Positions 2 to 64,000 of a stretch of DNA of 64,000 nucleotides are shown here, in pieces. Below the pieces are notes generated by a model that saw nothing but the letters and a program-made list of their open reading frames with translations, searched no databases and had not been told where the DNA came from. The stretch is from an uncultured Methanobrevibacter sp. (GTDB taxonomy: Archaea; Methanobacteriota; Methanobacteria; Methanobacteriales; Methanobacteriaceae): positions 1-64,000 of the forward strand of contig NZ_CACXXB010000006.1 of the NCBI RefSeq assembly GCF_902771435.1, written 5' to 3'. Position 1 is the first letter of the stretch. Every line of letters starts with the position of its first letter. The translations under genes were made by a program, and so were the position numbers.

Positions 2-589
2 CATTTATGTGCATATTACACTGCTAACTGTGAAATTGACAGTGATGACTTAAAAGAGTTTTTAAAAGATCGTCTTACTCGTTATATGGTTCCAACCGTG
101 TTCATGCAGCTAGATGAAATGCCGCAAACACCAAACGGTAAAACTGACCTGAAACAACTGCCAGCACCACAACTTAGATTGTCATTTACACTCCCTGAAA
201 CTGAAACTGAAATAATCTTGCATGAAATTGCTTCATCCATCAGCAAAACAAAGGAATTCGGTACTACTGATGATTTGTATGCTGTCGGATTTACTTCATT
301 GTCACTGATGAAATTAAATGCAAGGATTTATGGGGAAATGGGTGTTAATTTAGATATTATTTCATTATTGAATGATCCTACAATCAAAAATATTGCAAAC
401 GAAATAGAAAACAATGATATTCTAGATTTGAATAGGCTAATAGAATCATCTAAGGACATGGTTTATTATCCATTGACAGAAAATCAGATGGGAATCTATT
501 ATGAGTGCATTCAAAGCGGTGATGTTGCACAATATAATCTGCCGTCAATCATAAGATTTGGCAGTGAAATTGATATATCCTTATCTTAA
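2..589 (+). CDS. Nonribosomal peptide synthetase, upstream piece (A C-terminus, T domain, start of C domain); frame broken
   Basis: This reading frame is already open at the window edge, so the 5' end of the gene lies outside. It encodes the end of an adenylation domain (Lys-loop region MPQTPNGKTD), a thiolation domain with the phosphopantetheine motif GFTSLSLM, and the first about 40 residues of a condensation domain (YYPLTENQMGIYYEC). It stops at 587-589, exactly where the next frame takes over with PYLKTRIV, the continuation of the same C domain. Comparison with the two later C domains shows 4 nt (575-578) where they have 45 nt, so about 41 nt are missing and the frame shifts. Either the gene is a pseudogene in this strain, or the assembly erred in a highly repetitive gene. 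Identity is certain from the in-gene copies; integrity is doubtful. Confidence 0.85.
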   Translation, partial: HLCAYYTANCEIDSDDLKEFLKDRLTRYMVPTVFMQLDEMPQTPNGKTDLKQLPAPQLRLSFTLPETETEIILHEIASSISKTKEFGTTDDLYAVGFTSLSLMKLNARIYGEMGVNLDIISLLNDPTIKNIANEIENNDILDLNRLIESSKDMVYYPLTENQMGIYYECIQSGDVAQYNLPSIIRFGSEIDISLS

Positions 590-3500
590 AACTAGAATTG
601 TTCCACAAAAAGGTAAAGTGATGCTGAAACGTGATGATTCATTAGATATTGATGATATTCCTATTGTTAATGTTGATAAGATTTCCGATGAAGAAATCGA
701 AAAAGAAAATCTGAAATTATTTGATTTGCATAATGACCAGTTATTCAGATTTAAAATCTATAAAACTCCTAGTGAAACAATTTTATTCTCTGATGTCCAC
801 CATATCATTTCGGATGGTGAATCCTTAGATAAGTTGTTCACAAATATTTCCAATGCGTATCAGGGAATTGAAATAGAAAAAGAAACAATCGATGGTTACA
901 TTAACAGCATAATAGAAAGTGAGAATGAAAACAGTGAAAAATATGAATTATCTAGAGAATTCTTCCATGATAAATTAACTCAAGAAGTTGATTCAACTGT
1001 ATTGACTCCTAATTTGAATGGTAATTTTAAAGAGGGAATTTTAAAATCAATTTCCAAAAATATAGATTCTGAATTGGTTAATAGGTTTTGCAGTGAAAAC
1101 AGGATATCCCCTAATGTTTTGTTTATGGCTGTAACCATGCTGAATTTGAATAAGTATACATTCAATGACAAAACATTGATTACAACTATTTTCAATGGAA
1201 GGTCAAACTCATCCTACATCAATACACAGGCATTTCTAGTTAAAACACTTCCAATTGTTTCAATCAGTGAGGATAGGACATTATCATTTAAAGAATATTT
1301 AAATTCAGTCAATGATGTCTGGTTGGAAACCATTAATCATTCTGATTATTCTTATACTAAGATTTCTGAAGAGTTTGGATTGAAACCTAATGGAAAAACT
1401 TATAAAGTTAAATATTTGAATTCACTTGAAGTCAACTATAAAATATCTTTGGATGTTAATGAAACCAAAGACAATCTTGAATTGTTTATCCAGTATAATG
1501 ACCAGTTGTACAGTGATGATTATATAGAAACATTCTTAAATTGTATTGTTAATGTTATAAATCAATTAATTGAAGCAGATATTGAAAAATTAAGCATTGG
1601 TGAAATAGAATTGGGTGAAAGTAAAGAGGCACCTACCTTTGCACCTGTTGATATGCCGATTTTACATAAACGCTTTGAAAAACAAGTGGTCGACAAAGGT
1701 GATGAAACTGCTCTTGTTGCAAGTGATGCCACTTTGACTTACAAGCAATTGGATGAAAAAGCAAATGTTATTGCAAATGCTTTAATAGATAAAGGAGTCA
1801 AACCGAAAAGTAATGTTTTAGTGATGCTTTCAAGGGACAGTAATTTGATTGCTTCCATTTTGGGTATCCTTAAAGCGGGTTGTGCCTTCATTCCGATTGA
1901 TCCGGCATATCCTAAAGAGAGAATAAATTATATTTATGAAAACAGTCAGGCGGATTATATTATTGCCAATGAATCCGGAGAGAATTCTTTAGATATTGAA
2001 GAACTGCTTAAACAAGGCAATTCAGAAAATCCTAACGTTAATGTTGATCCTGATGATTTGGCATATATGATTTATACTTCAGGTTCAACAGGTAATCCTA
2101 AAGGAGTAATGATTTGTCATGAAAATATCTGTAATCAGGCTCAAAATCCTAAATCCACTTATGATAGTTTGCTTTGTATTACAACTATCTCTTTTGACGT
2201 GTCTGTTGATGACATATTGACATCTCTTTCAAATGGGTTGAAATTGATATTGGCTGACGATGTTCAAATCAAAAATGTTCCTGAGCTTATTAAATTGATT
2301 GATGAAAATAAACCTGAAGTTTTAGAGATTACTCCGTCAAGAATTGGATCTTATCTTGAATTAGATGAATTCTGTAATGTGATTTCTTGTCTAAAATGTA
2401 TTTTCCTTGGTGGAGAGCAATTCTCAGCAAAAGTTTTTGATGATTTAAGAAAATACTGTGATGCGGTTATTTATAATAGTTATGGTCCAACTGAAACAAC
2501 AATCACCTCAAACAACAAAGAGATCACTGATGTGCACGATTTGACTGTGGGTCCTCCTTTAACCAATTATGTCACTGATGTTCGTGACATTGATGGAAAA
2601 TTAGTTCCTAATGGCGTAATGGGTGAATTATACATTGGTGGTACTGGTGTGGGTAAAGGATATTACAACATGCCTGAAAAAACCAAAGAATCATTCTTAA
2701 CTATCAATGGTATTCCATATTACAGAAGTGGGGACTATGCTATTGGACTTCCAAATGGTGAAATCGACATTAAAGGAAGAATCGACAACCAAATCAAATT
2801 AAGAGGATTAAGAATCGAAATTGGTGAAATTGAAACCAATATTGGTCAATATCCAGATATAATGCAAGCTGTTGTTGTAATTAAAGAAATTAACAATGCT
2901 GATCATTTATGCGCATATTACACTGCTAATGGTGAAATTGACACTGATGATTTAAAAGAGTTTTTAAAAGACAGGCTTACTAATTATATGGTTCCAACCG
3001 TGTTCATGCAGCTAGATGAGATGCCGCAAACACCAAACGGCAAGACAGACCTGAAACAACTGCCTGAACCTCAACTTAAATTGGCTTTGGTGATGCCTGA
3101 AACTGAAACGGAAGAAATATTATTTGAAATTGTTTCATCCATTGCAGATGTTGATGAATTTGGTGTTACAGATGACTTATACACTATTGGTTTTACTTCA
3201 TTGTCATTAATGAAATTAAATTCCATAATCTATGAGCAAATGGGTGCGAATTTAGACATTTCCATATTATTCAATGAGCCAACAGTTAAAAACTTTGCAA
3301 TAGCAATTGATAATTCATCTGAAAAAGAGGCTAGCATTCAAGAGATTATCGAATCCGCTAAAGACATGGAGTATTTCCCATTGACAGAAAATCAATTGGG
3401 TATTTACTATGAGTGTAAGCAAAATCCTGATGTGATTAAGTATACAATGCCTACAACAGTAAGATTTAGTAATGATGTTGATGCAAATAGACTTAAACAA

Positions 3501-6500
3501 GCAATTATTGATACTATTGAAGCACATCCGTATCTTAAAACAAGAATTGTAAATTATGATGGTGAATTAAAACAGAAAAGATGTGATGATTTAGCAATCA
3601 ACGATATTGAAATTGTTAAAGTCGATAGCATTGTTGATGAAGACATTGTTAGAAATGATGTCGCCCCAATCGCTATAGAGGACAGTCAATTGTTTAAATT
3701 CAAAATATATGAAACTCCTGATGAAGTTGTCTTATTCACAGATTTCCATCATATAATTACTGATGGTGTATCGCAAAACAATTTATTTAGAGATATAGCA
3801 GATATCTATGAAAATAGGGAGATATCCGAAGAGATAATTGATGGTTATACCTACAGTATTCTGGAAAAAGATGCCGAAAACAGTGAAACATATCAATCTG
3901 CAAAGGCATTTTTTGATGATAAATTAACTCAAGGAATAGAATCCACAGTTCTAACTCCAGATCTTAATGGAAATCCTGATGAAGGCAAAATAAAAAATGT
4001 TTCTGATACTATTGATTCAGAATTAATTAATGAGTTCTGTAATGATAATTCTATAAGTAAAAATGCTTTGTTTATCGCAAGTACCATTTTAAATCTAAAC
4101 AAATTTACATTCAGTGACAAATCATCAATAACAACAATATTCAATGGAAGATCAAGTCCGAGTTATTTCAATACTCAAGGATTTTTGGTAAAAACTGTTC
4201 CGTTTATAATAAATAATGAAAACAGGCAGGTGTCTGTCAGAGATTTCATTAACTCCATTGATCAAACTTGGAAAGAAACCTTAAGAAACAGTTCATATCC
4301 ATATATTAAAATTGCTGAAAAATATCAATTAAAACCTGAATTCTTCTATGCTTATCATGAATTCTTGGGATCAGATGAAATAAAAATAAACAATAAAGAG
4401 TACATTCCACAAGAGTTAGCCGGATTTTATATGGTTACAGTTGAATCTAAAATCAATTTGGCTATTTATGATAATGGAGATGAGTTTAATGTTGTCATGG
4501 AATATAATGACCAGCTATACAGTGAAGATTATGTCAGGACATTCATACAATCTATGAAGAACATTTTAGTTCAATTCCTTGAAAATGATATTGACAGTTG
4601 CAGAATCTGTGACGTAAAACTAAAAGATGATGTGGAATTACATGAATTTGTCGATGTGGAAATTCCATTTATCCATAAACGCTTTGAAAAACAGGTTGAT
4701 GAAACTCCGGAAAACACAGCATTAGTTGCATGTGATTGTTCATTGACCTATAGTGAACTTAACAAAAAAGCAAATCGTGTTGCTAATGCCCTTATAAACA
4801 GAGGAATAAAACCTAACAGTAATGTGTTAGTAATGCTTCCACGGGACAGCAAGCTTATTTCAGCTATTTTGGGTGTTTTAAAAGCAGGATGTGCATTCAT
4901 ACCTATTGATATAAACTACCCTGCTGGAAGGATTAATTATATTTTCGAAAACAGTCAGGCGGATTATTTAATAGCTGATGGCGTGATTGAAAATTCAATC
5001 GATATTGGTGAATTGCTCGAAGAAGAGAATACCTCAAATCCTCAAGTGGAAATTAATCCGGATGATTTGGCTTATATGATTTACACTTCAGGTTCTACAG
5101 GCAATCCTAAGGGAGTAATGACCAGTCATATGAATATTACAAATCTGTTCTCAAAAAGTGAGGATAGTGTAATTTATAATGCATATTCAAAAATGAAAAA
5201 GACCCTTGCTCTTTCAACAGTATCTTTTGATGCATTTTTACTTGATTTCATGCCATTAACCTATGGTTTGGAAATGGTGCTGGCTAATGATAGTGAAATA
5301 AAAAATATTAAGGAGTTAGCTGAGTTAGTTAAAAAAGAAAAACCAGATGCACTTACATTTTCCGCACCATCAAGATTTAAACAATATTTGGAATATGAGG
5401 AATTCGCCAAAGAAGTACCTAACTTCAAGTATATTGGTGTTGGTGGAGAAATGGTGCCTCAGGACCTAATTTCACGGCTTTTAGAGTATCCTAATTTAGA
5501 AGTGTATAATATTTACGGTCCGACTGAAACAACAGTAACATGTAATACTCATAAGCTTACTGCTGCTGAAAATATAACTGTTGGAAAGGCTCTGCACAAT
5601 TGCATAACTGAAGTTAGGGATATTGACGGAAAATTGGTACCTTGTGGTGTAATGGGCGAATTATACATTGGAGGTAAAGGTGTATCTAGAGGATATTACA
5701 ATATGGAAGAAAAAACCAAAGAAGTATTCCTATCTATTAATGATATTCCATATTATAGAAGTGGGGACTATGCTATTGAACTTCCAAATGGTGAGTTGGT
5801 AATAAAAGGAAGAATTGACAACCAAATTAAATTAAGAGGATTGAGAATAGAACTTGGTGAAATTGAATCCAATATTGCCAAATTCCCAGGTATTAGACAG
5901 GTTGTCGTTGTAATTGACAAAATCAATAATGTTGAACATTTATGTGCTTATTTCACATCCGATAAAGAAATAGATATAAATCTATTGAAAAGGTATTTGG
6001 GAAATAAATTAACTGAATATATGGTTCCAACCGTATTTATGCCTCTTGATGAGATGCCAATATCTCCAAATGGTAAAACGGATATTAAAAGACTTCCAAA
6101 ACCAAAATTAAATCTAGATTATGTTGAAGCTGAAAACGAAACTGAAGAAAAATTAGTTGAACTTGTTGCATCCATTGCCAATACAACTAAATTCGGTACA
6201 ACAGATGATTTATATCAATTGGGTTTCTCTTCTTTAACATTAATGAAATTAAACTCAATGATTTTCAATGAAATGAATGTGAATATTGATGTAACCTCAT
6301 TGTTTACAAATCCAACAATAAAATCGCTTGCAGATAAAATTGACAATAATATAGAATCTGAAATAGACGTGGATGAAATTATTGAAACTGCAAAAGATAT
6401 GGAATATTTCCCATTGACTTCAAACCAAATGGGAATTTATTATGAGTGTATGCAAACTGAAAAAATCAAATACACAATGCCTTTTGCAATAAGGTTTGAA

Positions 6501-9500
6501 AGCAGTATTGATCCTAATAAACTTAGAGATGCTGTTATTAAAACTGTTGATGCACATCCATATCTCAAAACAAGAATTATTAACACGGATGATGGAAAAG
6601 TATTGCAAAAAAGATGCGATCATGCTGAAATTGAAGAAATAGAAATTGAAGAAATAGATTCTATTAGTAATGAAGAAATAATGGAAAGAGACATAAAACC
6701 AATTCCGTTAGACAATAATCAATTATTTAGATTTAAAATCTATAAAACACCAGCAGAAACAATATTATTCGTCGATTTCCATCATATTATTACTGATGGT
6801 GTATCTCAAGGTATTTTCTTTAATGATTTGACCAAAGCATATAACAATGAAGAAATTGAATCTGAAATAATTAACGGATTTGAATACAGTCTGATTGAAG
6901 AGAAAACCTCTGTTAGTGAAGTTTCCGAGAAATTCTTCAAAAAACAATTTGGCCAAGACATTGAATCAACAGTTTTAACTCCAAATATGAATGGTAATCC
7001 TGATATTGGAAATATTAAACTTGTTTCAGACCAAATAAGTTCTAATTTTGTCAGGCTATTCTGTAAAGACCACTCAATAAGTTCAAATGTTTTATTTATG
7101 GCGGCTACACTTTTAAGCCTTAATAAATTTACATTTAGTGATAAGTCATTAATTACAACAATATTCAACGGTAGGGCAAACTCAAATTATTCAAATACTC
7201 AGGGAATGTTAGTTAAAACATTGCCTATTATTGTAAATGGCGAAAATCGTGACATGTTAGTTGAAGATTATGTAAAAATAGTTGATAAAGCATGGAAAGA
7301 TGCATTAATTCATAGCGATTATCCATACACAAAACTTTCAGAAGACTATCAACTAAAACCGGAATTCTTCTATGCATTCCATGAATCCTTAACGAATGAT
7401 ATTGAACTTAATGGTAAAGCTTATGAAGCTATTGACCTTGATGGTACTGTTTCAACTGATTATAAAATAAACATGGATATTTATGATGATGGGGAACTTA
7501 TTACTCTGTATTTGGAATATAACGACCAAATCTATACTGAAGAGTATGTTAATATGTTCCTGCGTTCAATTAAATATGTATTGTTCCAATTCTTTGTAAA
7601 CGATATGGATAAGCTAAAAATAAATGATATTGAATTGATGGAAGGGGAAATTCCAGAATTTATTGAAATTGACACTCCAATTTTACATAAACGCTTTGAA
7701 AAACAGGTTGTTAAAAAACCAAAAGATGTGGCATTGGTTGCAAGTGATGCTACTTTAACTTATGCGGAGTTGAATGAGAAAAGTAATAGGATTGCAAATG
7801 CATTAATCAGGCGAGGTGTAAAGCCTAAAAGCAATGTCCTTATAATGCTTAAAAGGGACAGTAATTTAATTGCTTCCATTTTAGGTGTCCTGAAAGCAGG
7901 TTGCGCATATGTTCCTATTGATCCGGAATATCCTCAGGAAAGAATCAACTACATTTATGAAAACAGTCAGGCGGATTATATCATAAGCTATGAGACTTCT
8001 GATAATTCCATCGATGTCAATGAACTTCTTGAAGATGGAATTACTGTTAATCCGAATGTTGAAGTTCTTCCAGATGATCTGGCATATATGATTTATACTT
8101 CAGGATCAACAGGTAATCCTAAAGGAGTAATGATTAGTCATAAAAACATCTGTAATCAGGCTCAAAACCCTAAATCCACTTATGATAGCTTGCTTTGTAT
8201 TACAACTATCTCTTTTGACGTGTCTGTTGATGACATATTGACATCTCTTTCAAATGGGTTGAAATTGATATTGGCTGATGATGTTCAAATCAGAAATGTT
8301 CCTGAGCTTATTAAATTGATTGATGAGAATAAACCTGAAGTTTTAGAAATTACTCCTTCAAGAATAGGCTCTTATCTTGAATTAGAGGAATTCTGTAATG
8401 TGATTTCTTGTCTAAAATGTATTTTCCTTGGTGGAGAGCAATTCTCAGCAAAAGTTTATGAAGATTTAAGAAAATACAGTGATGCAGTTGTTTATAACAG
8501 TTATGGTCCAACAGAAACAACAATCACCTCAAACAACAAAGAGGTCACTGATGTAAATGATTTGACTGTAGGCCCTCCTTTAACCAACTATGTCACTGAT
8601 GTTCGTGACATTGACGGTAAATTGCTTCCTAATGGTGTAATGGGCGAATTATACATTGGAGGTATGAGCGTTGGAAAAGGATATTACAACATGCCTGAAA
8701 AAACCAAAGAATCATTTTTAACCATCAATGGCATTCCATATTACAGAAGTGGGGACTATGCTATTGAACTTCCAAATGGTGAAATCGACATTAAAGGAAG
8801 AATCGACAACCAAATCAAATTAAGAGGATTAAGAATCGAAATTGGCGAAATTGAAACCAATATTGGTCAATATCCAGATATAAGGCAAGCGGTTGTTGTA
8901 ATTAGAGAGATTAACAATGTTGATCATTTATGCGCATATTACACTGCCAATTGTGAAATTGACAGTGATGATTTAAAAGAGTTTTTAAAAGACAGGCTTA
9001 CAAATTATATGATTCCGACCGTGTTCATGCAGTTAGATGAAATGCCGCAAACACCAAACGGAAAAACGGATACTAAGAAACTTCCGGAACCAAAAATGAA
9101 TTTGAAATATGTGGCACCGAAAACAAAACTTGAACAGGAAATCTGTGCAATATATTCATCCATATTGAATGTAGAAACTGTTGGTGCAGAGGATAATTTC
9201 TTTGAAATTGGTGGAACATCACTTATTGCATCAAAATTAATTATTGAATTGCTTAAACAGGGATATACTGTAAGATATGATGATATATTCAAGAAGAAAA
9301 CTCCTAAAGAACTAGCGAAATTATTGTCTGGAGAAAGCGGTTCCGAAGAGGATGAGTTGAATATAGAAGAGGACATTATCAAAAACTACGATTACAGTGA
9401 AATCAACAAACTTCTAGAAGAAAATACCTTAGAAAACTTCTTTGATGGTGAAAACCTGGAATTGGGCAATGTCCTATTGACTGGAGCTACAGGATTTTTA

Positions 9501-10562
9501 GGAATCCATATCCTATATGAATTCATCAAAAATGAGGAAGGTAAAATCTACTGTATGCTAAGAAAAGGTAAATTTGATTCATGTGAAGAAAGATTAATTG
9601 ATATGATGGATTATTACTTTGATGAAGATTTAACTGATCTAATCGGGTCACGCATTATCGTTATTGAAGGGGACATAACTGAAATTGATGACTTTAAAAA
9701 ACTTGAAGACGAACCGATTGATACAATAATAAATTCAGCAGCACTAGTAAAACACTATACTGCTGACGATTATATATTCAGGGTAAATGTCGATGGAGTA
9801 ATCAATGGACTTAAGTTTGCCCAAACAAGAAATAACATAAAATATGTGCAAATATCAACAATCAGTGTTCTCTCATCATACTCTTTAAATGAAGAGGAAT
9901 ATCCAAATCAGGAATATAATGAAAGAACATTATATTACGGACAGGATTTGGAAAATAAATATGTATGCAGTAAGTTTTTAGCTGAAAGGTCAGTTTTACA
10001 GGCGGCGACTAAAGGACTTCCAGTAAAAATAATTAGAGTAGGAAACCTGATGAGCCGTTACTCAGACGGTGTGTTCCAGAAAAACTATGATACAAATGCA
10101 TTTTTAAATAACATAAAGACCATTAAAAAACTAGGTGCTATGAATCCTATGATGGCTAATGAAAAGGTTGACATGAGTCAAATCGATTATGTTGCAAAAG
10201 GAATACTTGCATTATCTAAGACTCCAGAAAAATCCAGAGTATTCCATTGTATGAATAATCATTACATTTCCCATAGGGATATTATCGATGCATTAAATAC
10301 ATACGGTTATGGAATTGCTGAAGTGATTTTCGAAGAATTTAAACAGATTTTCGAACATAACATTAATGAGAATATACAGGGTATTATAACTGCCGATTTT
10401 TCAATTGATGACTTTGATGAAGAAGACGATTTCGAGGAGAATGTAGAAATTGAACAGACTGTTGATATTCTTCAATCATTAGGATTTGATTGGCCTAAAC
10501 CGGATATTAAGTATCTTAAACGATTATTCGATTATTTAAATAAATTCGATTATTTTGAATGA
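558..10562 (+). CDS. Nonribosomal peptide synthetase, C-A-T-C-A-T-C-A-T-reductase
   Basis: Cytoplasmic assembly-line enzyme joining amino acids held on phosphopantetheine arms. Domains in order, in residues of this frame: C1 (HHIISDG at 81-87), A1 (YTSGSTGNPKG from 506), T1 (Ser881), C2 (HHIITDG from 1064), A2 (YTSGSTG from 1509), T2 (Ser1892), C3 (HHIITDG from 2075), A3 (from 2513), T3 (Ser2888 in EIGGTSL), and a terminal NAD(P)H thioester reductase (TGATGFLG from 2975, YVCSK catalytic Tyr/Lys). The TTG at 558 is not a believable start; the frame continues the upstream piece after a frameshift. A1 and A3 are near-identical, A2 differs. The reductase implies release as aldehyde or alcohol rather than acid. 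The MATE exporter follows at once. Products of such methanogen NRPSs are, to my knowledge, unknown. Confidence 0.93.
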   Translation: MAVKLIYPYLKTRIVPQKGKVMLKRDDSLDIDDIPIVNVDKISDEEIEKENLKLFDLHNDQLFRFKIYKTPSETILFSDVHHIISDGESLDKLFTNISNAYQGIEIEKETIDGYINSIIESENENSEKYELSREFFHDKLTQEVDSTVLTPNLNGNFKEGILKSISKNIDSELVNRFCSENRISPNVLFMAVTMLNLNKYTFNDKTLITTIFNGRSNSSYINTQAFLVKTLPIVSISEDRTLSFKEYLNSVNDVWLETINHSDYSYTKISEEFGLKPNGKTYKVKYLNSLEVNYKISLDVNETKDNLELFIQYNDQLYSDDYIETFLNCIVNVINQLIEADIEKLSIGEIELGESKEAPTFAPVDMPILHKRFEKQVVDKGDETALVASDATLTYKQLDEKANVIANALIDKGVKPKSNVLVMLSRDSNLIASILGILKAGCAFIPIDPAYPKERINYIYENSQADYIIANESGENSLDIEELLKQGNSENPNVNVDPDDLAYMIYTSGSTGNPKGVMICHENICNQAQNPKSTYDSLLCITTISFDVSVDDILTSLSNGLKLILADDVQIKNVPELIKLIDENKPEVLEITPSRIGSYLELDEFCNVISCLKCIFLGGEQFSAKVFDDLRKYCDAVIYNSYGPTETTITSNNKEITDVHDLTVGPPLTNYVTDVRDIDGKLVPNGVMGELYIGGTGVGKGYYNMPEKTKESFLTINGIPYYRSGDYAIGLPNGEIDIKGRIDNQIKLRGLRIEIGEIETNIGQYPDIMQAVVVIKEINNADHLCAYYTANGEIDTDDLKEFLKDRLTNYMVPTVFMQLDEMPQTPNGKTDLKQLPEPQLKLALVMPETETEEILFEIVSSIADVDEFGVTDDLYTIGFTSLSLMKLNSIIYEQMGANLDISILFNEPTVKNFAIAIDNSSEKEASIQEIIESAKDMEYFPLTENQLGIYYECKQNPDVIKYTMPTTVRFSNDVDANRLKQAIIDTIEAHPYLKTRIVNYDGELKQKRCDDLAINDIEIVKVDSIVDEDIVRNDVAPIAIEDSQLFKFKIYETPDEVVLFTDFHHIITDGVSQNNLFRDIADIYENREISEEIIDGYTYSILEKDAENSETYQSAKAFFDDKLTQGIESTVLTPDLNGNPDEGKIKNVSDTIDSELINEFCNDNSISKNALFIASTILNLNKFTFSDKSSITTIFNGRSSPSYFNTQGFLVKTVPFIINNENRQVSVRDFINSIDQTWKETLRNSSYPYIKIAEKYQLKPEFFYAYHEFLGSDEIKINNKEYIPQELAGFYMVTVESKINLAIYDNGDEFNVVMEYNDQLYSEDYVRTFIQSMKNILVQFLENDIDSCRICDVKLKDDVELHEFVDVEIPFIHKRFEKQVDETPENTALVACDCSLTYSELNKKANRVANALINRGIKPNSNVLVMLPRDSKLISAILGVLKAGCAFIPIDINYPAGRINYIFENSQADYLIADGVIENSIDIGELLEEENTSNPQVEINPDDLAYMIYTSGSTGNPKGVMTSHMNITNLFSKSEDSVIYNAYSKMKKTLALSTVSFDAFLLDFMPLTYGLEMVLANDSEIKNIKELAELVKKEKPDALTFSAPSRFKQYLEYEEFAKEVPNFKYIGVGGEMVPQDLISRLLEYPNLEVYNIYGPTETTVTCNTHKLTAAENITVGKALHNCITEVRDIDGKLVPCGVMGELYIGGKGVSRGYYNMEEKTKEVFLSINDIPYYRSGDYAIELPNGELVIKGRIDNQIKLRGLRIELGEIESNIAKFPGIRQVVVVIDKINNVEHLCAYFTSDKEIDINLLKRYLGNKLTEYMVPTVFMPLDEMPISPNGKTDIKRLPKPKLNLDYVEAENETEEKLVELVASIANTTKFGTTDDLYQLGFSSLTLMKLNSMIFNEMNVNIDVTSLFTNPTIKSLADKIDNNIESEIDVDEIIETAKDMEYFPLTSNQMGIYYECMQTEKIKYTMPFAIRFESSIDPNKLRDAVIKTVDAHPYLKTRIINTDDGKVLQKRCDHAEIEEIEIEEIDSISNEEIMERDIKPIPLDNNQLFRFKIYKTPAETILFVDFHHIITDGVSQGIFFNDLTKAYNNEEIESEIINGFEYSLIEEKTSVSEVSEKFFKKQFGQDIESTVLTPNMNGNPDIGNIKLVSDQISSNFVRLFCKDHSISSNVLFMAATLLSLNKFTFSDKSLITTIFNGRANSNYSNTQGMLVKTLPIIVNGENRDMLVEDYVKIVDKAWKDALIHSDYPYTKLSEDYQLKPEFFYAFHESLTNDIELNGKAYEAIDLDGTVSTDYKINMDIYDDGELITLYLEYNDQIYTEEYVNMFLRSIKYVLFQFFVNDMDKLKINDIELMEGEIPEFIEIDTPILHKRFEKQVVKKPKDVALVASDATLTYAELNEKSNRIANALIRRGVKPKSNVLIMLKRDSNLIASILGVLKAGCAYVPIDPEYPQERINYIYENSQADYIISYETSDNSIDVNELLEDGITVNPNVEVLPDDLAYMIYTSGSTGNPKGVMISHKNICNQAQNPKSTYDSLLCITTISFDVSVDDILTSLSNGLKLILADDVQIRNVPELIKLIDENKPEVLEITPSRIGSYLELEEFCNVISCLKCIFLGGEQFSAKVYEDLRKYSDAVVYNSYGPTETTITSNNKEVTDVNDLTVGPPLTNYVTDVRDIDGKLLPNGVMGELYIGGMSVGKGYYNMPEKTKESFLTINGIPYYRSGDYAIELPNGEIDIKGRIDNQIKLRGLRIEIGEIETNIGQYPDIRQAVVVIREINNVDHLCAYYTANCEIDSDDLKEFLKDRLTNYMIPTVFMQLDEMPQTPNGKTDTKKLPEPKMNLKYVAPKTKLEQEICAIYSSILNVETVGAEDNFFEIGGTSLIASKLIIELLKQGYTVRYDDIFKKKTPKELAKLLSGESGSEEDELNIEEDIIKNYDYSEINKLLEENTLENFFDGENLELGNVLLTGATGFLGIHILYEFIKNEEGKIYCMLRKGKFDSCEERLIDMMDYYFDEDLTDLIGSRIIVIEGDITEIDDFKKLEDEPIDTIINSAALVKHYTADDYIFRVNVDGVINGLKFAQTRNNIKYVQISTISVLSSYSLNEEEYPNQEYNERTLYYGQDLENKYVCSKFLAERSVLQAATKGLPVKIIRVGNLMSRYSDGVFQKNYDTNAFLNNIKTIKKLGAMNPMMANEKVDMSQIDYVAKGILALSKTPEKSRVFHCMNNHYISHRDIIDALNTYGYGIAEVIFEEFKQIFEHNINENIQGIITADFSIDDFDEEDDFEENVEIEQTVDILQSLGFDWPKPDIKYLKRLFDYLNKFDYFE
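2045..3050 (+). repeat. Near-identical adenylation-domain copy (A1), partner of 8066-9071
   Basis: The A1 segment matches A3 at a constant offset of 6021 bp, with long runs identical at nucleotide level, including third codon positions. A2, between them, is much more diverged. The first 140 bases of the window match the ends of both copies, so a further upstream A domain belongs to the same group. This points to recent duplication or gene conversion. Confidence 0.85.
8066..9071 (+). repeat. Near-identical adenylation-domain copy (A3), partner of 2045-3050
   Basis: Second copy of the A-domain repeat inside the NRPS gene. It covers the region from the ATP-binding loop through the specificity pocket to the Lys loop, so both modules should load the same amino acid. 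Confidence 0.85.
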
Positions 10563-50801: not shown

Positions 50802-51671
50802 TTGAGTTTTGATATTAAGGAAGCTATTTTAATTTTTATTCGCGGAGTCCTGATGGGTTCTGCAGATATTGTTCCCGGAGTTTCCGGTGGAACAATAGCA
50901 TTGATTACAGGAATTTACGGTCATTTAATTGAAGCAATAAGTAAAATCAAATTCGGATTTGTAAGGCCACTTCTTAAAGGTGACATTAAGGGTTTTAAAA
51001 ACGAGCTCTTTGATGAAATCGATTTCAAATTCTTCATACCTCTGGTTTTGGGTATTGGTGTTGCTTTCTTGACACTGGCTAAAGTCGTAACCTACTGTAT
51101 GGATACTCATACTGCGCTTACATATTCATTCTTTTTAGGTTTGATCATAGCTTCAGCGGTAATCTTATTTAAAAAACTCAACCAAATAAATTTGAAAAAC
51201 ATAATATTTGCCGTTATCGGTGCAATTTTGACTTATATCTTTGTAAGTCTGAATCCTATAGCGGCCAATCATTCACTGCCGGTAATATTTATTTCAGGTA
51301 TGATAGCCATTTGTGCAATGATTTTGCCGGGTATTTCAGGTTCATTCCTGCTGTTATTGCTGGGCCAGTACAAATACATGTTGGATGTACTTCATGAACT
51401 TCATTTTGTAGATATCATTGTTTTTGTGGTTGGTGCATTGATTGGAATACTTGGATTTTCAAAAATCCTGAATTATTTGCTCAAAAATCATGAAAAGGTA
51501 ACAATGGCATTTCTTATTGGTGTAATGCTTGGATCTTTAAGGGTTCCAGGTTTTCAAATTGCAAATTCAGTCGGCTTGAATTTTGCAGGTCTGTTCCCGT
51601 GCCTCATCGTTGCAGTTATCGGTTTCGGACTGATTATTATTCTGGAAACCAGATTTGATTACATTGATTAG
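50802..51671 (+). CDS. DUF368 family membrane protein (polyprenyl-phosphate transporter type)
   Basis: 289 residues, eight to nine membrane helices. Signature motifs RGVLMGSADIVPGVSGGTIA and a mirrored ICAMILPGISGSFLLLLLG, the two re-entrant repeats of DUF368. Bacterial members (PopT) recycle undecaprenyl phosphate across the membrane for wall synthesis; here a role in recycling the archaeal lipid carrier for pseudomurein or glycans is plausible. TTG 50802 is the start, with AAGGTGATT just before. Stop is in the loop of a terminator hairpin. Confidence 0.88.
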   Translation: MSFDIKEAILIFIRGVLMGSADIVPGVSGGTIALITGIYGHLIEAISKIKFGFVRPLLKGDIKGFKNELFDEIDFKFFIPLVLGIGVAFLTLAKVVTYCMDTHTALTYSFFLGLIIASAVILFKKLNQINLKNIIFAVIGAILTYIFVSLNPIAANHSLPVIFISGMIAICAMILPGISGSFLLLLLGQYKYMLDVLHELHFVDIIVFVVGALIGILGFSKILNYLLKNHEKVTMAFLIGVMLGSLRVPGFQIANSVGLNFAGLFPCLIVAVIGFGLIIILETRFDYID

Positions 51672-51705: not shown

Positions 51706-51804
51706 AAAATTTTTGATTAGAAGTTCATTTCTGTAAAATTATTTATAATTATCTTGACAGATATATCATTTAACAAATTACTTTTTGTTATAACCGGTGA
51801 AAAA

Positions 51805-54039
51805 ATGAAATTTAAATTGATATATCTAGTGATGATTATTGTCATTTTCTCATCCATTGCAGCTGTCAGTGCAGGAGAGCTAAATGAAACATTGACTGCA
51901 GATGTCAGCGATGATTTGTCTTTGGATGATGATAATGTATTAACTGTTTCGCAGGATAATCCGCTTGAAGATTATCCGGATGAAAAAATCTTGAATGTAT
52001 CTGACAATGAAGCTAATGCTGTTTTGCAGGCTGATGATGGTTCTACAAAGGAAAGTGAATCTCCATTATATGGGATTGTGGATATAGGTTCAAATTCCAT
52101 GGAATTGAGAATATATGAAATTAAGAAAAGTGGAAAGCCCAAATCTGTTTTTTCTTTATCTGAAAAGTCAGTAACAGCAATTTATGTCGAAAACAACACT
52201 TTGTCAGAAAAGGGGATTGACGAATTTGTATCCATTATGAAAGACTTTAATGGTGTAATGGATTTGCTCAAGGTCAAGACCAAATATGCATTTGCAACCG
52301 CCAGCTTAAGAAAGATAGATAATAGTGAGGAAGTTATTGCAGCCGTTAAAAAGAAAGTTGGATTGGATATTCACTTGTTGAGTGGTGAAAAAGAGGCAAG
52401 AACAAGCTTCAATGCTGTTAAAAACACTGATTTGACAACAGATAATGGTATTGTTATTGATTTGGGTGGAGGAAGTTGTGAAGTGATTGATTTTGTCAAT
52501 AAAACAGTAATAACTTCCGAAAGTATGCCGATAGGTTCAAACTCAATTTATGCAGATTGTGTCAGTGAAATGTTTCCGAACGGCACTGAGATGAAGGAAA
52601 TAGAAAATAGGGTTTTAAATGAGCTTAAAAAGCTTTCCGTAACTAACGATACTCAAAGATATGATTTATTCGGTATTGGAGGAACTGTAAAGACTATCAA
52701 GAAAGTTCTGGTATATATGGAATCCATTGACGATGATGCAGACAGTATTCCTGTTTCAATGCTGGATTATTTATTTGATATGTTCAGCCAGCCGACAAAA
52801 GACAATTATCAAACAATTCTGAATATCAATGCTGAAAGAATCAACACATTCGTACCGGGATTGGTAATTACAAGAACAATTGCCAATTATTTCAACATGT
52901 CCTATTTGCATTTCTGCAAAAACACAGTAAGGGATGGAATTTTAGCGGAAATCCTCGAAAATGAAAGCAGGGAAACAAAAGAAAAACAGGATGTTTCCTT
53001 GAATTTAAGTGACATTTCCATTGCCATTGATGAAAATGCGGAAATTCCTGTAACACTTCCAAGCAATGCGACAGGAACAGTTAAAGTTAAATTGGATGAT
53101 ATTGAGTATGTTTCCTCACTTTCAAACGGAAGCTGCATTATTATTCTTCCGAAATTGCAGTCAGGCAATTATTCAGCTAAAATAACATATAGCGGTGATG
53201 ATAATTATGCCTCCAACAAAACAAAGATAAACGTCCATGTCAAATCAGCATCAATTGATGCACATGACATGGTTAGGGGATACAATAGCGATTATGACTA
53301 TCAGGTAAAATTAATTGATGAGAATGGAAACGGCATTTCAAACAAATTGATTTCATTTACTGTAATGTCAAATCAATATTATGCAATAACAGATGATGAT
53401 GGTTTGGCAAGTGTTAAAGCAAACCTGAATGCAGGAACATATAATGTCACTGTTTCATCTGCAATTGCCGGAAATTCCACAACAGCACTGAAAATCCTGA
53501 AGCGATTTGAAAACAACAGGAATTTAAAAGTTTATTACGCAAGCAATGCCAATTATAAGGTCAGGATTATTGGAGACGATGGAAATCCTGAAACTGAAGG
53601 CCAAAATGTCACTGTACTGATTGACAATAAGATGAAAACCTATAAAACAGATAAGAACGGATTCATTACAGTTAAAATCGATAAAAACTTTAAAGTCGGT
53701 ACTCACACCATCAAAATCCAGTATAGGAATGCTAGCGTTAAAAATAATGTTGTTGTAAAACATATTGTGGCTCTTAAATCAGCAACCGTGAAAAAATCAG
53801 CTAAAAAACTGGTGTTAACCGCAAGTCTGGCAAAGGTCAACGGAAAATATCTGAAAAATAAAAAGATCACCTTCAAATTCAACGGCAAAACCTACAAGTC
53901 AAACACCAATTCCAAAGGCATTGCAAAGGTTACCATCAAATCTAGTGTCCTCAAAAAGCTTAAGGCTGGAAAAAAAGTTTCCTACCAGGCGACTTACCTT
54001 AAGGATACTGTTAAAAGAACTGCAAAAATCTTAAAGTAG
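51805..54039 (+). CDS. Secreted Ppx/GppA phosphatase-domain protein fused to Ig-like adhesin domains
   Basis: 744 residues from ATG 51805 (GGTGA at 51796-51800); upstream in-frame codons lack a site. Residues 1-23 are a signal peptide (MKFKLIYLVMIIVIFSSIAA, cleavage near VSAG), then an acidic low-complexity linker. About 88-400 form an exopolyphosphatase / pppGpp phosphohydrolase domain of the ASKHA fold: DIGSNSMELRIYE from 93, FATASLRKIDN, LSGEKEARTSFNAV, DLGGGSCEV (GGGS at 221-224), SMPIGSNSIY and GIGGTVKT from 290. About 410-744 are Ig-like/Big repeats ending in a Lys-rich domain like the adhesin C-terminus at 12.4 kb. The phosphatase motifs look intact, so it may act on polyphosphate outside the cell. 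Ppx/GppA enzymes are normally cytoplasmic. Confidence 0.88.
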   Translation: MKFKLIYLVMIIVIFSSIAAVSAGELNETLTADVSDDLSLDDDNVLTVSQDNPLEDYPDEKILNVSDNEANAVLQADDGSTKESESPLYGIVDIGSNSMELRIYEIKKSGKPKSVFSLSEKSVTAIYVENNTLSEKGIDEFVSIMKDFNGVMDLLKVKTKYAFATASLRKIDNSEEVIAAVKKKVGLDIHLLSGEKEARTSFNAVKNTDLTTDNGIVIDLGGGSCEVIDFVNKTVITSESMPIGSNSIYADCVSEMFPNGTEMKEIENRVLNELKKLSVTNDTQRYDLFGIGGTVKTIKKVLVYMESIDDDADSIPVSMLDYLFDMFSQPTKDNYQTILNINAERINTFVPGLVITRTIANYFNMSYLHFCKNTVRDGILAEILENESRETKEKQDVSLNLSDISIAIDENAEIPVTLPSNATGTVKVKLDDIEYVSSLSNGSCIIILPKLQSGNYSAKITYSGDDNYASNKTKINVHVKSASIDAHDMVRGYNSDYDYQVKLIDENGNGISNKLISFTVMSNQYYAITDDDGLASVKANLNAGTYNVTVSSAIAGNSTTALKILKRFENNRNLKVYYASNANYKVRIIGDDGNPETEGQNVTVLIDNKMKTYKTDKNGFITVKIDKNFKVGTHTIKIQYRNASVKNNVVVKHIVALKSATVKKSAKKLVLTASLAKVNGKYLKNKKITFKFNGKTYKSNTNSKGIAKVTIKSSVLKKLKAGKKVSYQATYLKDTVKRTAKILK

Positions 54040-59415: not shown

Positions 59416-62400
59416 TTGTTTGTAAAATCGAATAAATCAATCATAATTGGCTTATTGTTATTATTTTCATTGATCTTAATTCCAATAAGCTTTGCAGCGG
59501 ATAACACTACTGCAATATTGAGTCATGAAACTGCCAATGTGACAGATGCAGTTTCAGTTCCTTTGGAGGATAATGCTTTAGCAGCATCAAACGATTATTA
59601 TTTTGATGCGTCAGCTGAAAGCGATGGGAACGGATCCATATCCAGTCCCTATAAATATCTAAAAGCTGAATATATAAAGGAAAATTCCAATCTATATTTT
59701 GCCAATGGTCAGTATAATTTGGATAAGGCCAAAACCATTCAAGAGGTAAATATTATAGGCAGTGATGTGGACAGGACAATAATCAAATATGACGGCCAGG
59801 CATTCACGGTCAGCAACCAGTTTACAGTTAAAAACGTCACATTTATGGATTTGTCCATTACTAATAATGCTAAATTCACTGCATCCAATGTGATTTTTGA
59901 AGAAGGCTACGGATCCAGGCCGGACAGCTATGGAAACAATTGGGGCGGTGCAATATATACTCCGGATGGTTATGAAAACGCTTATGTAAATGTTAACAAT
60001 TGCACCTTCAAAAACAATTATGCGGTGTATGGCGGAGCCATCTACATTGGTGCGGGCAATTTAAACGTGTCAAATTCATTGTTTTTCAACAATTACGCAT
60101 ACAATTATGGAGGTGCAATAGCATGCGATTATGCTTCCAGTATTTTCGTTTCCAAATCCAAATTCTACAATTCACGTTCACAGGAAGATGCCGGAGGAAG
60201 CATTTACATCAGGCAGGCATCCAGATTCACCGCAGACCACATTGATATTTCAAATTCATCTGCAACTTTCGGCGGTGCATTGACAACATTAAACACTACC
60301 GTTTCACTAAGCTATGTTAATATGACTGATAACTCCGCCAAATATGATGGAGGTGCAATTTTTCATATGTATGGTGGATTTACAATGTCATATTCAAGAT
60401 TCATCAATAATTCTGCCAAAAACGGCGGTGCAATATTTATTGACAACTCCACAAACGCAATTTTCATGCGCAATACTTTTACAGACAATAAGGCAACCGA
60501 TACCGGAGGAGCAGTCTATTCCATTTTAAATAAATTTAACCCTCCATTTCCAAGAGTCAACACTTTTAATTCTAATATTGCAGCTCATGGAAGCGATTAT
60601 TATGATGCCTCTAGCATTAATTTAACAATCGGAAATGGAAATTACACAATGTATAATATGGAGGTGAATCCGATATCATCTCTTCCAAGCAGATACAGTC
60701 TGATTGATGAGGGCTATGTTACCACTGTTAAAGACCAGCAAACCAGCGGTAACTGCTGGGCATTCACTGCACTGGCTGCTTTGGAATCATGCATTCTGAA
60801 GGCAACCGGTGAGACATTGAATCTTTCTGAAGAAAATATGAAAAACATCATTGCAATGTATTCCGACTACGGCTGGAAAATAGATACCAATGAGGGGGGC
60901 TATGATAATATGCCTTGGGGATATCTTGCAGGCTGGCTGGGTCCTGTGGATGAAACTGATGACCAGTTTGATGACAAGTCAACATTATCTCCGATATTGA
61001 ACAGCATCATGCATGTTCAAAACATCAAGTTTTTAAAGCGCAGCTCCTTTACAGACAACGATGAAATCAAAAGGGCAGTCCTGAATTACGGTGCTGTAGG
61101 TACAGCATTTTATTATCATAATGATTATTATAACTATCAAAAATATGCTTATTACTGTGGGTATAGTACTGGTGGCAACCATGCAGTAACAATCGTCGGA
61201 TGGGATGATACATACTCAAAAAATAATTTTAAATATGGCAGCGCTCCTGGTGACGGTGCATGGATTGTAAAAAACAGCTGGAATTCAAACTGGGGAAATA
61301 AGGGATACTTCTATGTGTCATATTATGATGCAAATTTTGCAAGGCCTCAAGTGGAAGCCTCTGCATATACTTTCATTTTAAATGACACAATCCGTTTTGA
61401 TAAAAATTACCAGTATGATATAGCAGGAATGACAGATTACTTTTACAGCACCACATCAAATGCATTGTACAAGAACAGATTCACATCAACTTGTGATGAA
61501 TATCTGGCGGCTGTTTCAACATACTTTGAAAAAGCAACCAACTGGACAGCAACAGTTCTTGTAAATGATGAGATAAAGGATGCATTATCCGGAATTTCAG
61601 CTTCAGGTTATTATACATTCAATCTCAATAAGTTCATTCCAGTCAAAAGCGGTGATGTCTTTGAGGTCATATTCAATATTACCGCCTCTGGCGATGTGGG
61701 TGTTCCGATATCTGAAATATATTCTTTAAATAAATTGGTTTATGCTCCAGGCGTTTCTTATATAAGCTGGGACGGTGTAAATTGGTTTGATTTATACAAT
61801 TTTTCTAAAACTTACCCTGATCACACTTATAATTCAGGTGTGGCTTGTATTAAGGCATTTACATATTTAAACCCAATCAATACATTGACAAATCTGAGCA
61901 TTGATTTTAAACGGGAGGGATTATCCAACATTTCAGCCAGGATTTATGACGAATTTGGAAATCTTGTAAAATATGGAAATGTCACTTTCAATATAAACGG
62001 CGAAAACCGGACTGTCAGTGTGGAAAATGGTGTTGCAAAATTATCATATGGCTTTAATAAAAAGGTCAATTCAATATCCGCTTCATTTGATGCAACAGGT
62101 TACAATTCATCTTCCAACATGACATCTTACACTCTTCCAAAAATAGATATTGAATGGGCATTAAACATTACCAAGGTTTTCAATAATGTCAATATCACAG
62201 TAACTGCCAACAAACCGCTTAATGAAAGCATAATTATGAATATCAACGGTGAAAACCTTCCATTCAATTTAACCAACGGAACTAACACATTAACAATAAA
62301 GAATTTAGCCAATAATTTGTACAGTGTTCATGTTTCACTTTCCGATGATTCCGATTATTCTGCGGGTATTTTAAGCGGGGAATTTGTAATTGAGATGTAT

Positions 62401-64000
62401 AAGACAAAAATTATCTCCCGCAGTTTAAATGCAACTGATGACGGTGCATTCGCATTCACTATAACTCTGTTGGATGAAAACGATAATGCGGTATCAAATA
62501 GGCAAATCATTTTCACAGTTAACAACTCCACATATGTAAATACAACTGATAATAACGGTCAGGCTATTGTCTATATCAAAATGGATAAGGGAGTTTATGA
62601 CATAGCTTCATCATTTAATGGAGACAACAGTTATTTCGCTTCAAATGCAACAGATTCTATAAACGTTAAAGGAAAAATATGGATTGACGTGAATGTAAAT
62701 GTCTATAGCAACAATGCATTCATCAATGTTTTCGGATCAAATCGCATAAATGAAACATTCACAGTTCTTGTTAACAACAGGCCTCATAATGCAACTTCAA
62801 AAGATGGGGTTGCCACATTGATATTACCTGATTTGGCAAATGATGTTTATAACGTTAAAGTATCTTTAAATGAAAGTGAATATGAGTTCAATGAAGCCGA
62901 AACCCAATTCACAATCAACATTGAGGATAATGTTGAAATTGAAAGCAGCATTGAGATTTCAGGTGATGATGCAATAATCAATATAGAAATTGGGGATGTC
63001 AGCGGTAATGTAAATGTAATTGTAGATGGAAACAGCAATGTTTACCAACTCGCTGGCGGAAAGGCAAACCACACAGTTAAGGACATATCTGCAGGCAACC
63101 ATACTTTAATAATAATATATGAAAACAAAGAGTTCAAATCCGAAATATTCACTGTTCCTAAAAGGCAATCCAGCATTGAATTGAGTTTCGATAACATTAA
63201 AGTCGGTGAAAAAGCCACAATAAGTGTTGATGTTCCTCAAAAAGCTACAGAAATGGTTTCAATTGACATTAACGGAACTTCATACATGGTGAATTTATCC
63301 AAAACCAATACTTTGGATTTAATTTTTGACCGCGCAGGCAATTATTCAATCGTAGCTACATATTGTGGTGATTATAACTATGAATCATCAAAATCACAGG
63401 AATACACTCTCATCGTAGCCGATAAGAAAAGGGCCAACATTTCCATTGATGTTCCTGATGATGTAAAAGTTGGTGATGAAATTCTAATAGGAATCACATC
63501 CGGCACTGATGCACAGCTCGCTGTCACCATCAATGGAGAAGTTCAAAGCATAATTTATGCAAACGGTCCATTGGGATTATCTTTAGGCGATGTTCTCCAG
63601 GCTGCTAACGGTAAAGTTAAATATGTTCCTTTAAAAGGAGGAATCTATAATATTACTGTAATTGCAGGTGAAAATGAAGAGTATGCAGGCGAAACCGTAA
63701 CCAAAGTATTTGAAGCAACTAAAAAAGAGGCAATACTTACAGTTTCACCAATTGCTGATGCAAAAGTCGGCGATAAAGTTACAATCAGTGTTGTAAATGA
63801 AACTGACGGTGCTTTAACCATTAAAGTAAACACAGAAAAAGTGACAGGCGAATATGAAATCACCAAGGCGGGAACATATACAATTACTGTTGAAAGTATT
63901 GAAACCGATGAATACAAAGCAGGATTTACAACCTACGCGTTTAATGTTGCTGAAGAACCTGTAGGGCCGGGTAATATTACTGTTGTCATTGATGGTAAGG
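59416..64000 (+). CDS. Surface cysteine protease / adhesin-like protein, 3' end outside the window
   Basis: One open frame of 1528 codons runs from TTG 59416 (GTGGAGGTCT site before it) to the window edge. Signal peptide: FVKSNKSIIIGLLLLFSLIL, cleavage near SFAA. Residues about 60-420 are beta-helix rungs (NNWGGAIYT, YGGAIYIGAG, NGGAIFID). About 430-640 is a papain-family (C1) peptidase: VKDQQTSGNCWAF with oxyanion Gln441 and nucleophile Cys447, GGNHAVTIVGWDD with His589, and WIVKNSWNSNWGNKGYF with Asn620; the triad is complete. From about 820 on come many Ig-like repeats (GEKATISVDV, VGDEILIGI, VGDKVTISVV). It is exported and wall-associated, and could cleave surface proteins of competitors or host. 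Such peptidase adhesins are known in Methanobrevibacter. Confidence 0.9.
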   Translation, partial: MFVKSNKSIIIGLLLLFSLILIPISFAADNTTAILSHETANVTDAVSVPLEDNALAASNDYYFDASAESDGNGSISSPYKYLKAEYIKENSNLYFANGQYNLDKAKTIQEVNIIGSDVDRTIIKYDGQAFTVSNQFTVKNVTFMDLSITNNAKFTASNVIFEEGYGSRPDSYGNNWGGAIYTPDGYENAYVNVNNCTFKNNYAVYGGAIYIGAGNLNVSNSLFFNNYAYNYGGAIACDYASSIFVSKSKFYNSRSQEDAGGSIYIRQASRFTADHIDISNSSATFGGALTTLNTTVSLSYVNMTDNSAKYDGGAIFHMYGGFTMSYSRFINNSAKNGGAIFIDNSTNAIFMRNTFTDNKATDTGGAVYSILNKFNPPFPRVNTFNSNIAAHGSDYYDASSINLTIGNGNYTMYNMEVNPISSLPSRYSLIDEGYVTTVKDQQTSGNCWAFTALAALESCILKATGETLNLSEENMKNIIAMYSDYGWKIDTNEGGYDNMPWGYLAGWLGPVDETDDQFDDKSTLSPILNSIMHVQNIKFLKRSSFTDNDEIKRAVLNYGAVGTAFYYHNDYYNYQKYAYYCGYSTGGNHAVTIVGWDDTYSKNNFKYGSAPGDGAWIVKNSWNSNWGNKGYFYVSYYDANFARPQVEASAYTFILNDTIRFDKNYQYDIAGMTDYFYSTTSNALYKNRFTSTCDEYLAAVSTYFEKATNWTATVLVNDEIKDALSGISASGYYTFNLNKFIPVKSGDVFEVIFNITASGDVGVPISEIYSLNKLVYAPGVSYISWDGVNWFDLYNFSKTYPDHTYNSGVACIKAFTYLNPINTLTNLSIDFKREGLSNISARIYDEFGNLVKYGNVTFNINGENRTVSVENGVAKLSYGFNKKVNSISASFDATGYNSSSNMTSYTLPKIDIEWALNITKVFNNVNITVTANKPLNESIIMNINGENLPFNLTNGTNTLTIKNLANNLYSVHVSLSDDSDYSAGILSGEFVIEMYKTKIISRSLNATDDGAFAFTITLLDENDNAVSNRQIIFTVNNSTYVNTTDNNGQAIVYIKMDKGVYDIASSFNGDNSYFASNATDSINVKGKIWIDVNVNVYSNNAFINVFGSNRINETFTVLVNNRPHNATSKDGVATLILPDLANDVYNVKVSLNESEYEFNEAETQFTINIEDNVEIESSIEISGDDAIINIEIGDVSGNVNVIVDGNSNVYQLAGGKANHTVKDISAGNHTLIIIYENKEFKSEIFTVPKRQSSIELSFDNIKVGEKATISVDVPQKATEMVSIDINGTSYMVNLSKTNTLDLIFDRAGNYSIVATYCGDYNYESSKSQEYTLIVADKKRANISIDVPDDVKVGDEILIGITSGTDAQLAVTINGEVQSIIYANGPLGLSLGDVLQAANGKVKYVPLKGGIYNITVIAGENEEYAGETVTKVFEATKKEAILTVSPIADAKVGDKVTISVVNETDGALTIKVNTEKVTGEYEITKAGTYTITVESIETDEYKAGFTTYAFNVAEEPVGPGNITVVIDGK

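Follow-up and report, generated by a model that had tools for sequence, protein, structure and literature searches.

The open reading frame considered here occupies positions 51805-54039 of the forward strand of a 64,000-nucleotide stretch of DNA (the window) from an uncultured Methanobrevibacter sp. It begins with ATG, extends over 744 amino acids without an internal stop, and the ORF together with a domain scan identifies it as an intact, putatively exported, adhesin-like gene with a Ppx/GppA domain, an architecture kept in four other genomes. Ahead of the start codon and on the same strand lie a GGTG that by eye could be a Shine-Dalgarno sequence (51796-51799) and a TATA-like element, TTTATAATTATC, at 51742-51753, which was found by consensus match, is present as a single copy in the window against a chance expectation of 0.03, and may give the gene its own promoter. 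Directly upstream (50802-51671, forward strand) is a gene for a PopT/DUF368-type polyprenyl-phosphate translocase (PF04018, 5e-80).

The encoded protein comprises, all on the forward strand, a predicted signal peptide (residues 1-23, 51805-51873), an acidic, fast-evolving linker (residues 24-85, 51874-52059), a Ppx/GppA phosphatase domain of the ASKHA type (residues 86-390, 52060-52974), a Big_3_5 Ig-like domain (residues 404-479, 53014-53241; Pfam scan, E=1e-16), a Big_1-like domain (residues 499-559, 53299-53481; Pfam scan, E=2e-11), and a Lys-rich Ig-like tail (residues 573-744, 53521-54036). A preceding sequence-only reading had already placed Ig-like domains after the Ppx domain, and the profile scan bears it out.

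Profile, sequence-to-structure, and model-based matches converge on the assignment of the phosphatase domain. The Pfam scan aligned PF02541 with residues 124-386 at E=1.3e-44 and 153 bits (curated cut-off 27), and the motifs DIGSNS, ATASLRK, GEKEAR, DLGGGSCE, and GIGGT follow in that order, DLGGGS and GIGGT being the phosphate loops. The exopolyphosphatase model TIGR03706 aligned end to end with residues 89-384 at 188 bits, under its curated cut-off of 307, and two short relatives scored against it also fell under the cut-off. The 744-residue sequence matched solved Ppx/GppA structures with E-values down to 9e-21, and the Pfam scan gave no match to the GDA1/CD39 family at E<=1. An AF2 model of the domain, with only three sequences as alignment input, reached a pLDDT of 84.6 and a pTM of 0.82. 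The sequence-only reading had suggested a structural comparison with E. coli Ppx; the predicted structure had Aquifex Ppx/GppA 1t6c as its best PDB match (E=6e-25, TM 0.82), and the next matches after Ppx/GppA were NTPDases (E about 1e-12, 11-14% identity in the structural alignment). The model displays the two-subdomain ASKHA fold of the Ppx/GppA family.

With E. coli PPX from the public record as the yardstick for the active site, R93, E121, D143, G145, S148, and E150 correspond to R169, E197, D219, G221, S224, and E226. These include, by alignment, the catalytic Arg169 (52309-52311) and Glu197 (52393-52395; PMC4631893, PMC3411833) and the metal-binding Asp219 (52459-52461) and Glu226 (52480-52482), and all six are invariant across the 44 sequences of a wide alignment (15 exported, 23 short, and 6 bacterial). 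In P. aeruginosa Ppx, activity drops severely when the counterparts of the acidic, Gly, and Ser positions are replaced by alanine (PMC4631893), and Arg84 and Glu112 of MTB-PPX1 have been implicated in hydrolysis (PMC3411833). Judged by sequence, predicted fold, and active site, the protein belongs to the Ppx/GppA family. The apparently intact domain of the initial reading is thereby upheld, and its concern that catalytic acids might be lost falls away, E197, D219, and E226 being present here and in 15/15 exported homologues.

The signal peptide was called by eye and by a hydropathy and small-residue heuristic. It consists of MKFK, a hydrophobic core, and AVSA preceding GEL, with the exact cleavage site (VSA/GEL) placed by eye. 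The heuristic recognizes a signal-peptide-like N-terminus in each of the 15 exported homologues and in no short form; in one homologue (G113a), an in-frame signal peptide is encoded without an ATG, GTG, or TTG start ahead of it. Hydropathy, cleavage pattern, and inspection by eye thus agree with the signal peptide first proposed and speak against its absence. The tail had been likened to that of the wall adhesin at 12.4 kb, and the likeness is real (E=6e-5) but weak for this pair (26% identity), closer tails of roughly 40-60% identity occurring in many other adhesin-like proteins of the genus. In M. ruminantium, the C-terminal Big_1-like domain of adhesin-like proteins has been proposed as their wall anchor, and by analogy with M1-C the tail probably has the same role (PMC2812497). 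In its architecture of N-terminal signal, Big/Ig domains, and C-terminal tail, the predicted protein is a methanogen adhesin-like protein, in line with the adhesin-type surface context suggested before; it would be exported by Sec and anchored at the wall.

The full signal peptide-linker-Ppx-Ig-tail layout, the recurrence of which had been raised as a check, was found in G072 (92% identity) and in G063, G071, and G023 (69-70%). As this layout recurs in four genomes at 69-92% identity, an assembly artefact is rejected; the signal-to-Ppx junction, on which that doubt had centred, is the same in several independent assemblies. Between the window gene and its four intact orthologues, dN/dS is 0.43-0.52 for the linker and 0.13-0.16 for the Ppx domain, which is under purifying selection. 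A broken copy of the exported gene, interrupted by one in-frame stop and a frame change, is present in G027 (L076:6611-8871) and could be a pseudogene or an assembly error; a second broken copy lies in G166.

A phylum-level search of 152 genomes confined Ppx to the window's own family, where it occurs in six genera. This family presumably corresponds to Methanobrevibacter sensu lato, now handled as a family-level taxon (PMC13135261). Short Ppx genes encode about 300 amino acids without a signal peptide, and ppk1 adjoins 19 of the 25 examined. The remaining six (L064, L116, L117, L118, L120, L121) are a clade of variants that carry DIGSS in place of DIGSN, lack a neighbouring ppk1, and have Lys for the final Gly in the second phosphate loop; their function is possibly different.

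Exported Ppx genes number 15, intact or nearly so, and show at least four C-terminal types: Ig domains plus tail (window, G072, G071, G023, G063, G137), a beta-helix-like region followed by Ig domains and tail (G023b, G073, G113a), Big_1-type repeats (G066a), and a membrane segment (G066b, G028, G008, G014, G166a). Membrane-anchored forms (L073:990-2291, L065:7785-9101, L071:6804-8204, L074:6705-8096) end in NPTGNPI, a hydrophobic segment, and a basic terminus, an arrangement that looks like a sorting signal. In a tree with one bacterial Ppx as the outgroup, all 15 exported genes group together (support 100/98) within the diversity of the short, signal-less ones, which points to a single origin of export within the family in the present sampling. 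Plasmid and phage searches returned only distant bacterial-type Ppx (20-34% identity), and scans of viral contigs gave nothing useful except one row, used in the fold alignment.

Export is accompanied by changes in the Ppx domain. Exported forms hold 6.0 N-x-S/T sequons against 3.5 expected, and ppk-linked short forms 1.6 against 2.25; the enrichment of exported over all short forms has a Mann-Whitney p of 2e-6 with relatedness ignored. The sum of Lys and Arg is 22-35 in exported domains versus 39-51 in ppk-linked ones, and the exported clade has lost several basic or polar residues that are invariant in ppk-linked forms, the window protein having E for R100, S for K119, K for R296, N for K342, and N for H347. 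By our own count of residue numbering, the R100 position aligns with Aquifex R22, a residue that contacts ppGpp; Arg is missing there in the exported clade (E100 in the window protein), and the equivalent of Aquifex R267 (R345) is retained in 14 of the 15 exported forms. The Ser/Thr of the first motif drifts within the clade, and the first-motif Asp is missing in two of the 15. Gain of sequons and loss of basic residues fit extracellular life and suggest an altered substrate preference: with conserved basic residues lost, the substrate may have shifted, and a domain poorer in basic residues is not what one would expect of an enzyme binding a long polyanion, which counts against a polyphosphate substrate.

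A genus search located exported Ppx in 11 of 67 genomes. Nine of them, among which is the window's genome, yielded no PPK1 and no cytoplasmic Ppx, several of the assemblies being incomplete, so the enzyme would not serve an internal pool made by PPK1; G066 and G071 have both exported and cytoplasmic kinds. In the window's own genome, about 93% complete, searches found no second Ppx, no PPK1, and no RelA/SpoT, and the sole PPK2 match was set aside, as it sits in an ORF that by eye looks like a dTMP kinase. Without a RelA/SpoT match in the genome, pppGpp is an unlikely substrate; of the extracellular hydrolysis of polyphosphate or nucleotides envisaged earlier, either remains the conjectured activity. 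A profile search of the same roughly 93%-complete assembly gave no match for PstS, PiT, a Na/Pi cotransporter, or alkaline phosphatase.

We favour, with modest confidence, a surface-displayed phosphoanhydride hydrolase that would act most likely on exogenous polyphosphate. A cytoplasmic, ppk1-linked exopolyphosphatase of gut methanogens would have been copied or relocated once, gaining a secretion signal and, by fusion, stalk and anchor domains of the adhesin type. The Sec pathway would export the product and the C-terminal Ig-like tail hold it at the wall, where the Ppx domain would strip terminal phosphates in a metal-dependent manner and release phosphate beside the cell, possibly to the benefit of the cell. 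The likeliest substrate would be exogenous, perhaps short-chain polyphosphate from neighbouring microbes or food, with nucleoside tri- and diphosphates less likely. Besides the loss of basic residues, the lack of matches to phosphate transporters and alkaline phosphatase in the roughly 93%-complete assembly and the lack of a conserved gene neighbour weigh against this reading. For the clade as a whole, it may tentatively be proposed that these are cell-surface exopolyphosphatases with which intestinal methanogens lacking PPK1-made polyphosphate of their own harvest or destroy that of neighbours, host, or diet, on interchangeable stalks and anchors.

It is unlikely that the exported domain instead hydrolyses extracellular ATP/ADP or other nucleotides in parallel with the GDA1/CD39 NTPDases, which have a related ASKHA phosphatase fold in common with Ppx/GppA and include some exported, extracellular members. 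NTPDases are the structural matches next in rank, and the lost basic residues would suit a smaller, less anionic substrate, but the window protein has no Pfam match to the GDA1/CD39 family and its domain descends from a mostly ppk1-linked gene group, so the ancestral substrate was probably polyphosphate. Also in its favour, the short-chain Ppx MTB-PPX1 accepts ATP and ADP as substrates (PMC3411833).

Non-catalytic reuse of the Ppx fold within an adhesin, as a module binding polyphosphate, teichoic-like wall polymers, or a partner surface, is quite improbable. The adhesin-like context would accommodate it, as would the drift of peripheral basic residues and of the first-motif Ser/Thr and the absence of the first-motif Asp from two of the 15 forms; however, hydrolysis is favoured because the catalytic residues are invariant in 15/15 exported homologues, and dN/dS is as low as in the cytoplasmic enzymes.

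Activity on phosphate-rich wall glycopolymers or polyprenyl (pyro)phosphate, linked to the PopT-like gene, is highly improbable. Lipid pyrophosphates are not, to our knowledge, a substrate of any Ppx/GppA enzyme, and the undecaprenyl-phosphate-translocase-like gene just upstream (PF04018, 5e-80), which speaks for the idea, is retained beside the gene in just one orthologue, the 92%-identical relative; a functional tie to it was therefore rejected. The walls of M. ruminantium have been reported as phosphate-rich (PMC2812497), which would suit such a role. No gene neighbour conserved across the orthologues was found, and a thioredoxin-reductase-like region beside those in G063, G023, and G071 was discarded as context, the window not sharing it. 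That the signal peptide was misjudged or that the gene is heading for loss can hardly be credited, as the broken copies in G027 and G166 and a signal called by heuristic rather than SignalP are outweighed by the recurrent junction and purifying selection, and conservation largely refutes it.

Elsewhere, in the known cases, the Ppx/GppA domain is intracellular and acts on polyphosphate. The single-domain enzymes of Aquifex aeolicus (PPX/GPPA) and M. tuberculosis (PPX1, Rv0496) have the same fold, Arg/Glu/Asp/Glu site, phosphate loops, and similar catalytic-domain length, but have neither the signal peptide and linker of the window protein nor its Ig/anchor domains. E. coli PPX and GppA have the catalytic N-terminal domain and residues in common with it, whereas an extra C-terminal half replaces the Ig domains and the enzymes are cytoplasmic. 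Closest by tree and identity (about 30-48%) are the cytoplasmic, mostly ppk1-linked archaeal Ppx proteins, which differ in their length of about 300 amino acids, absence of a signal peptide, usually adjacent ppk1, and retained basic residues.

Methanogen adhesin-like proteins, including papain-type ones, likewise combine a signal peptide, Big/Ig or beta-helix stalks, and a C-terminal wall or membrane anchor, and some bear an enzyme domain; a domain survey of such proteins in M. smithii and Methanosphaera lists no Ppx domain (PMC11532034). PPX homologues were counted in Methanobacteriales in an earlier survey. In the passages searched of PMC13318637, PMC6864096, and PMC11532034, polyphosphate metabolism is presented as intracellular and an exported Ppx is not mentioned, a scope limited to open-licence literature that does not prove priority or uniqueness.

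Beyond the initial reading, the analysis adds a whole exported clade derived from a ppk-linked cytoplasmic gene, a genome in which no other Ppx or PPK1 was found, and the loss of basic residues. This gut-methanogen clade, with its predicted anchors, offers a tangible candidate, amenable to expression, for an enzyme that turns over polyphosphate outside cells in the gut community. It places a catalytic domain on adhesin-like proteins, which abound on methanogen surfaces, and has a parallel in the exported nucleotidases of the same fold; if the domain is active outside, these archaea may attack extracellular phosphate chains.

Two other ORFs of the window stand out. An adhesin-like ORF at 59416-64000 on the forward strand, which overruns the window end, has a papain-family protease domain (2e-26) with lectin-like, Ig-like, and Chlamydia-PMP repeats. 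At 86-10562, also on the forward strand, a very large ORF (3334 amino acids) with an upstream fragment resembles, by eye only, a multi-module non-ribosomal peptide synthetase.
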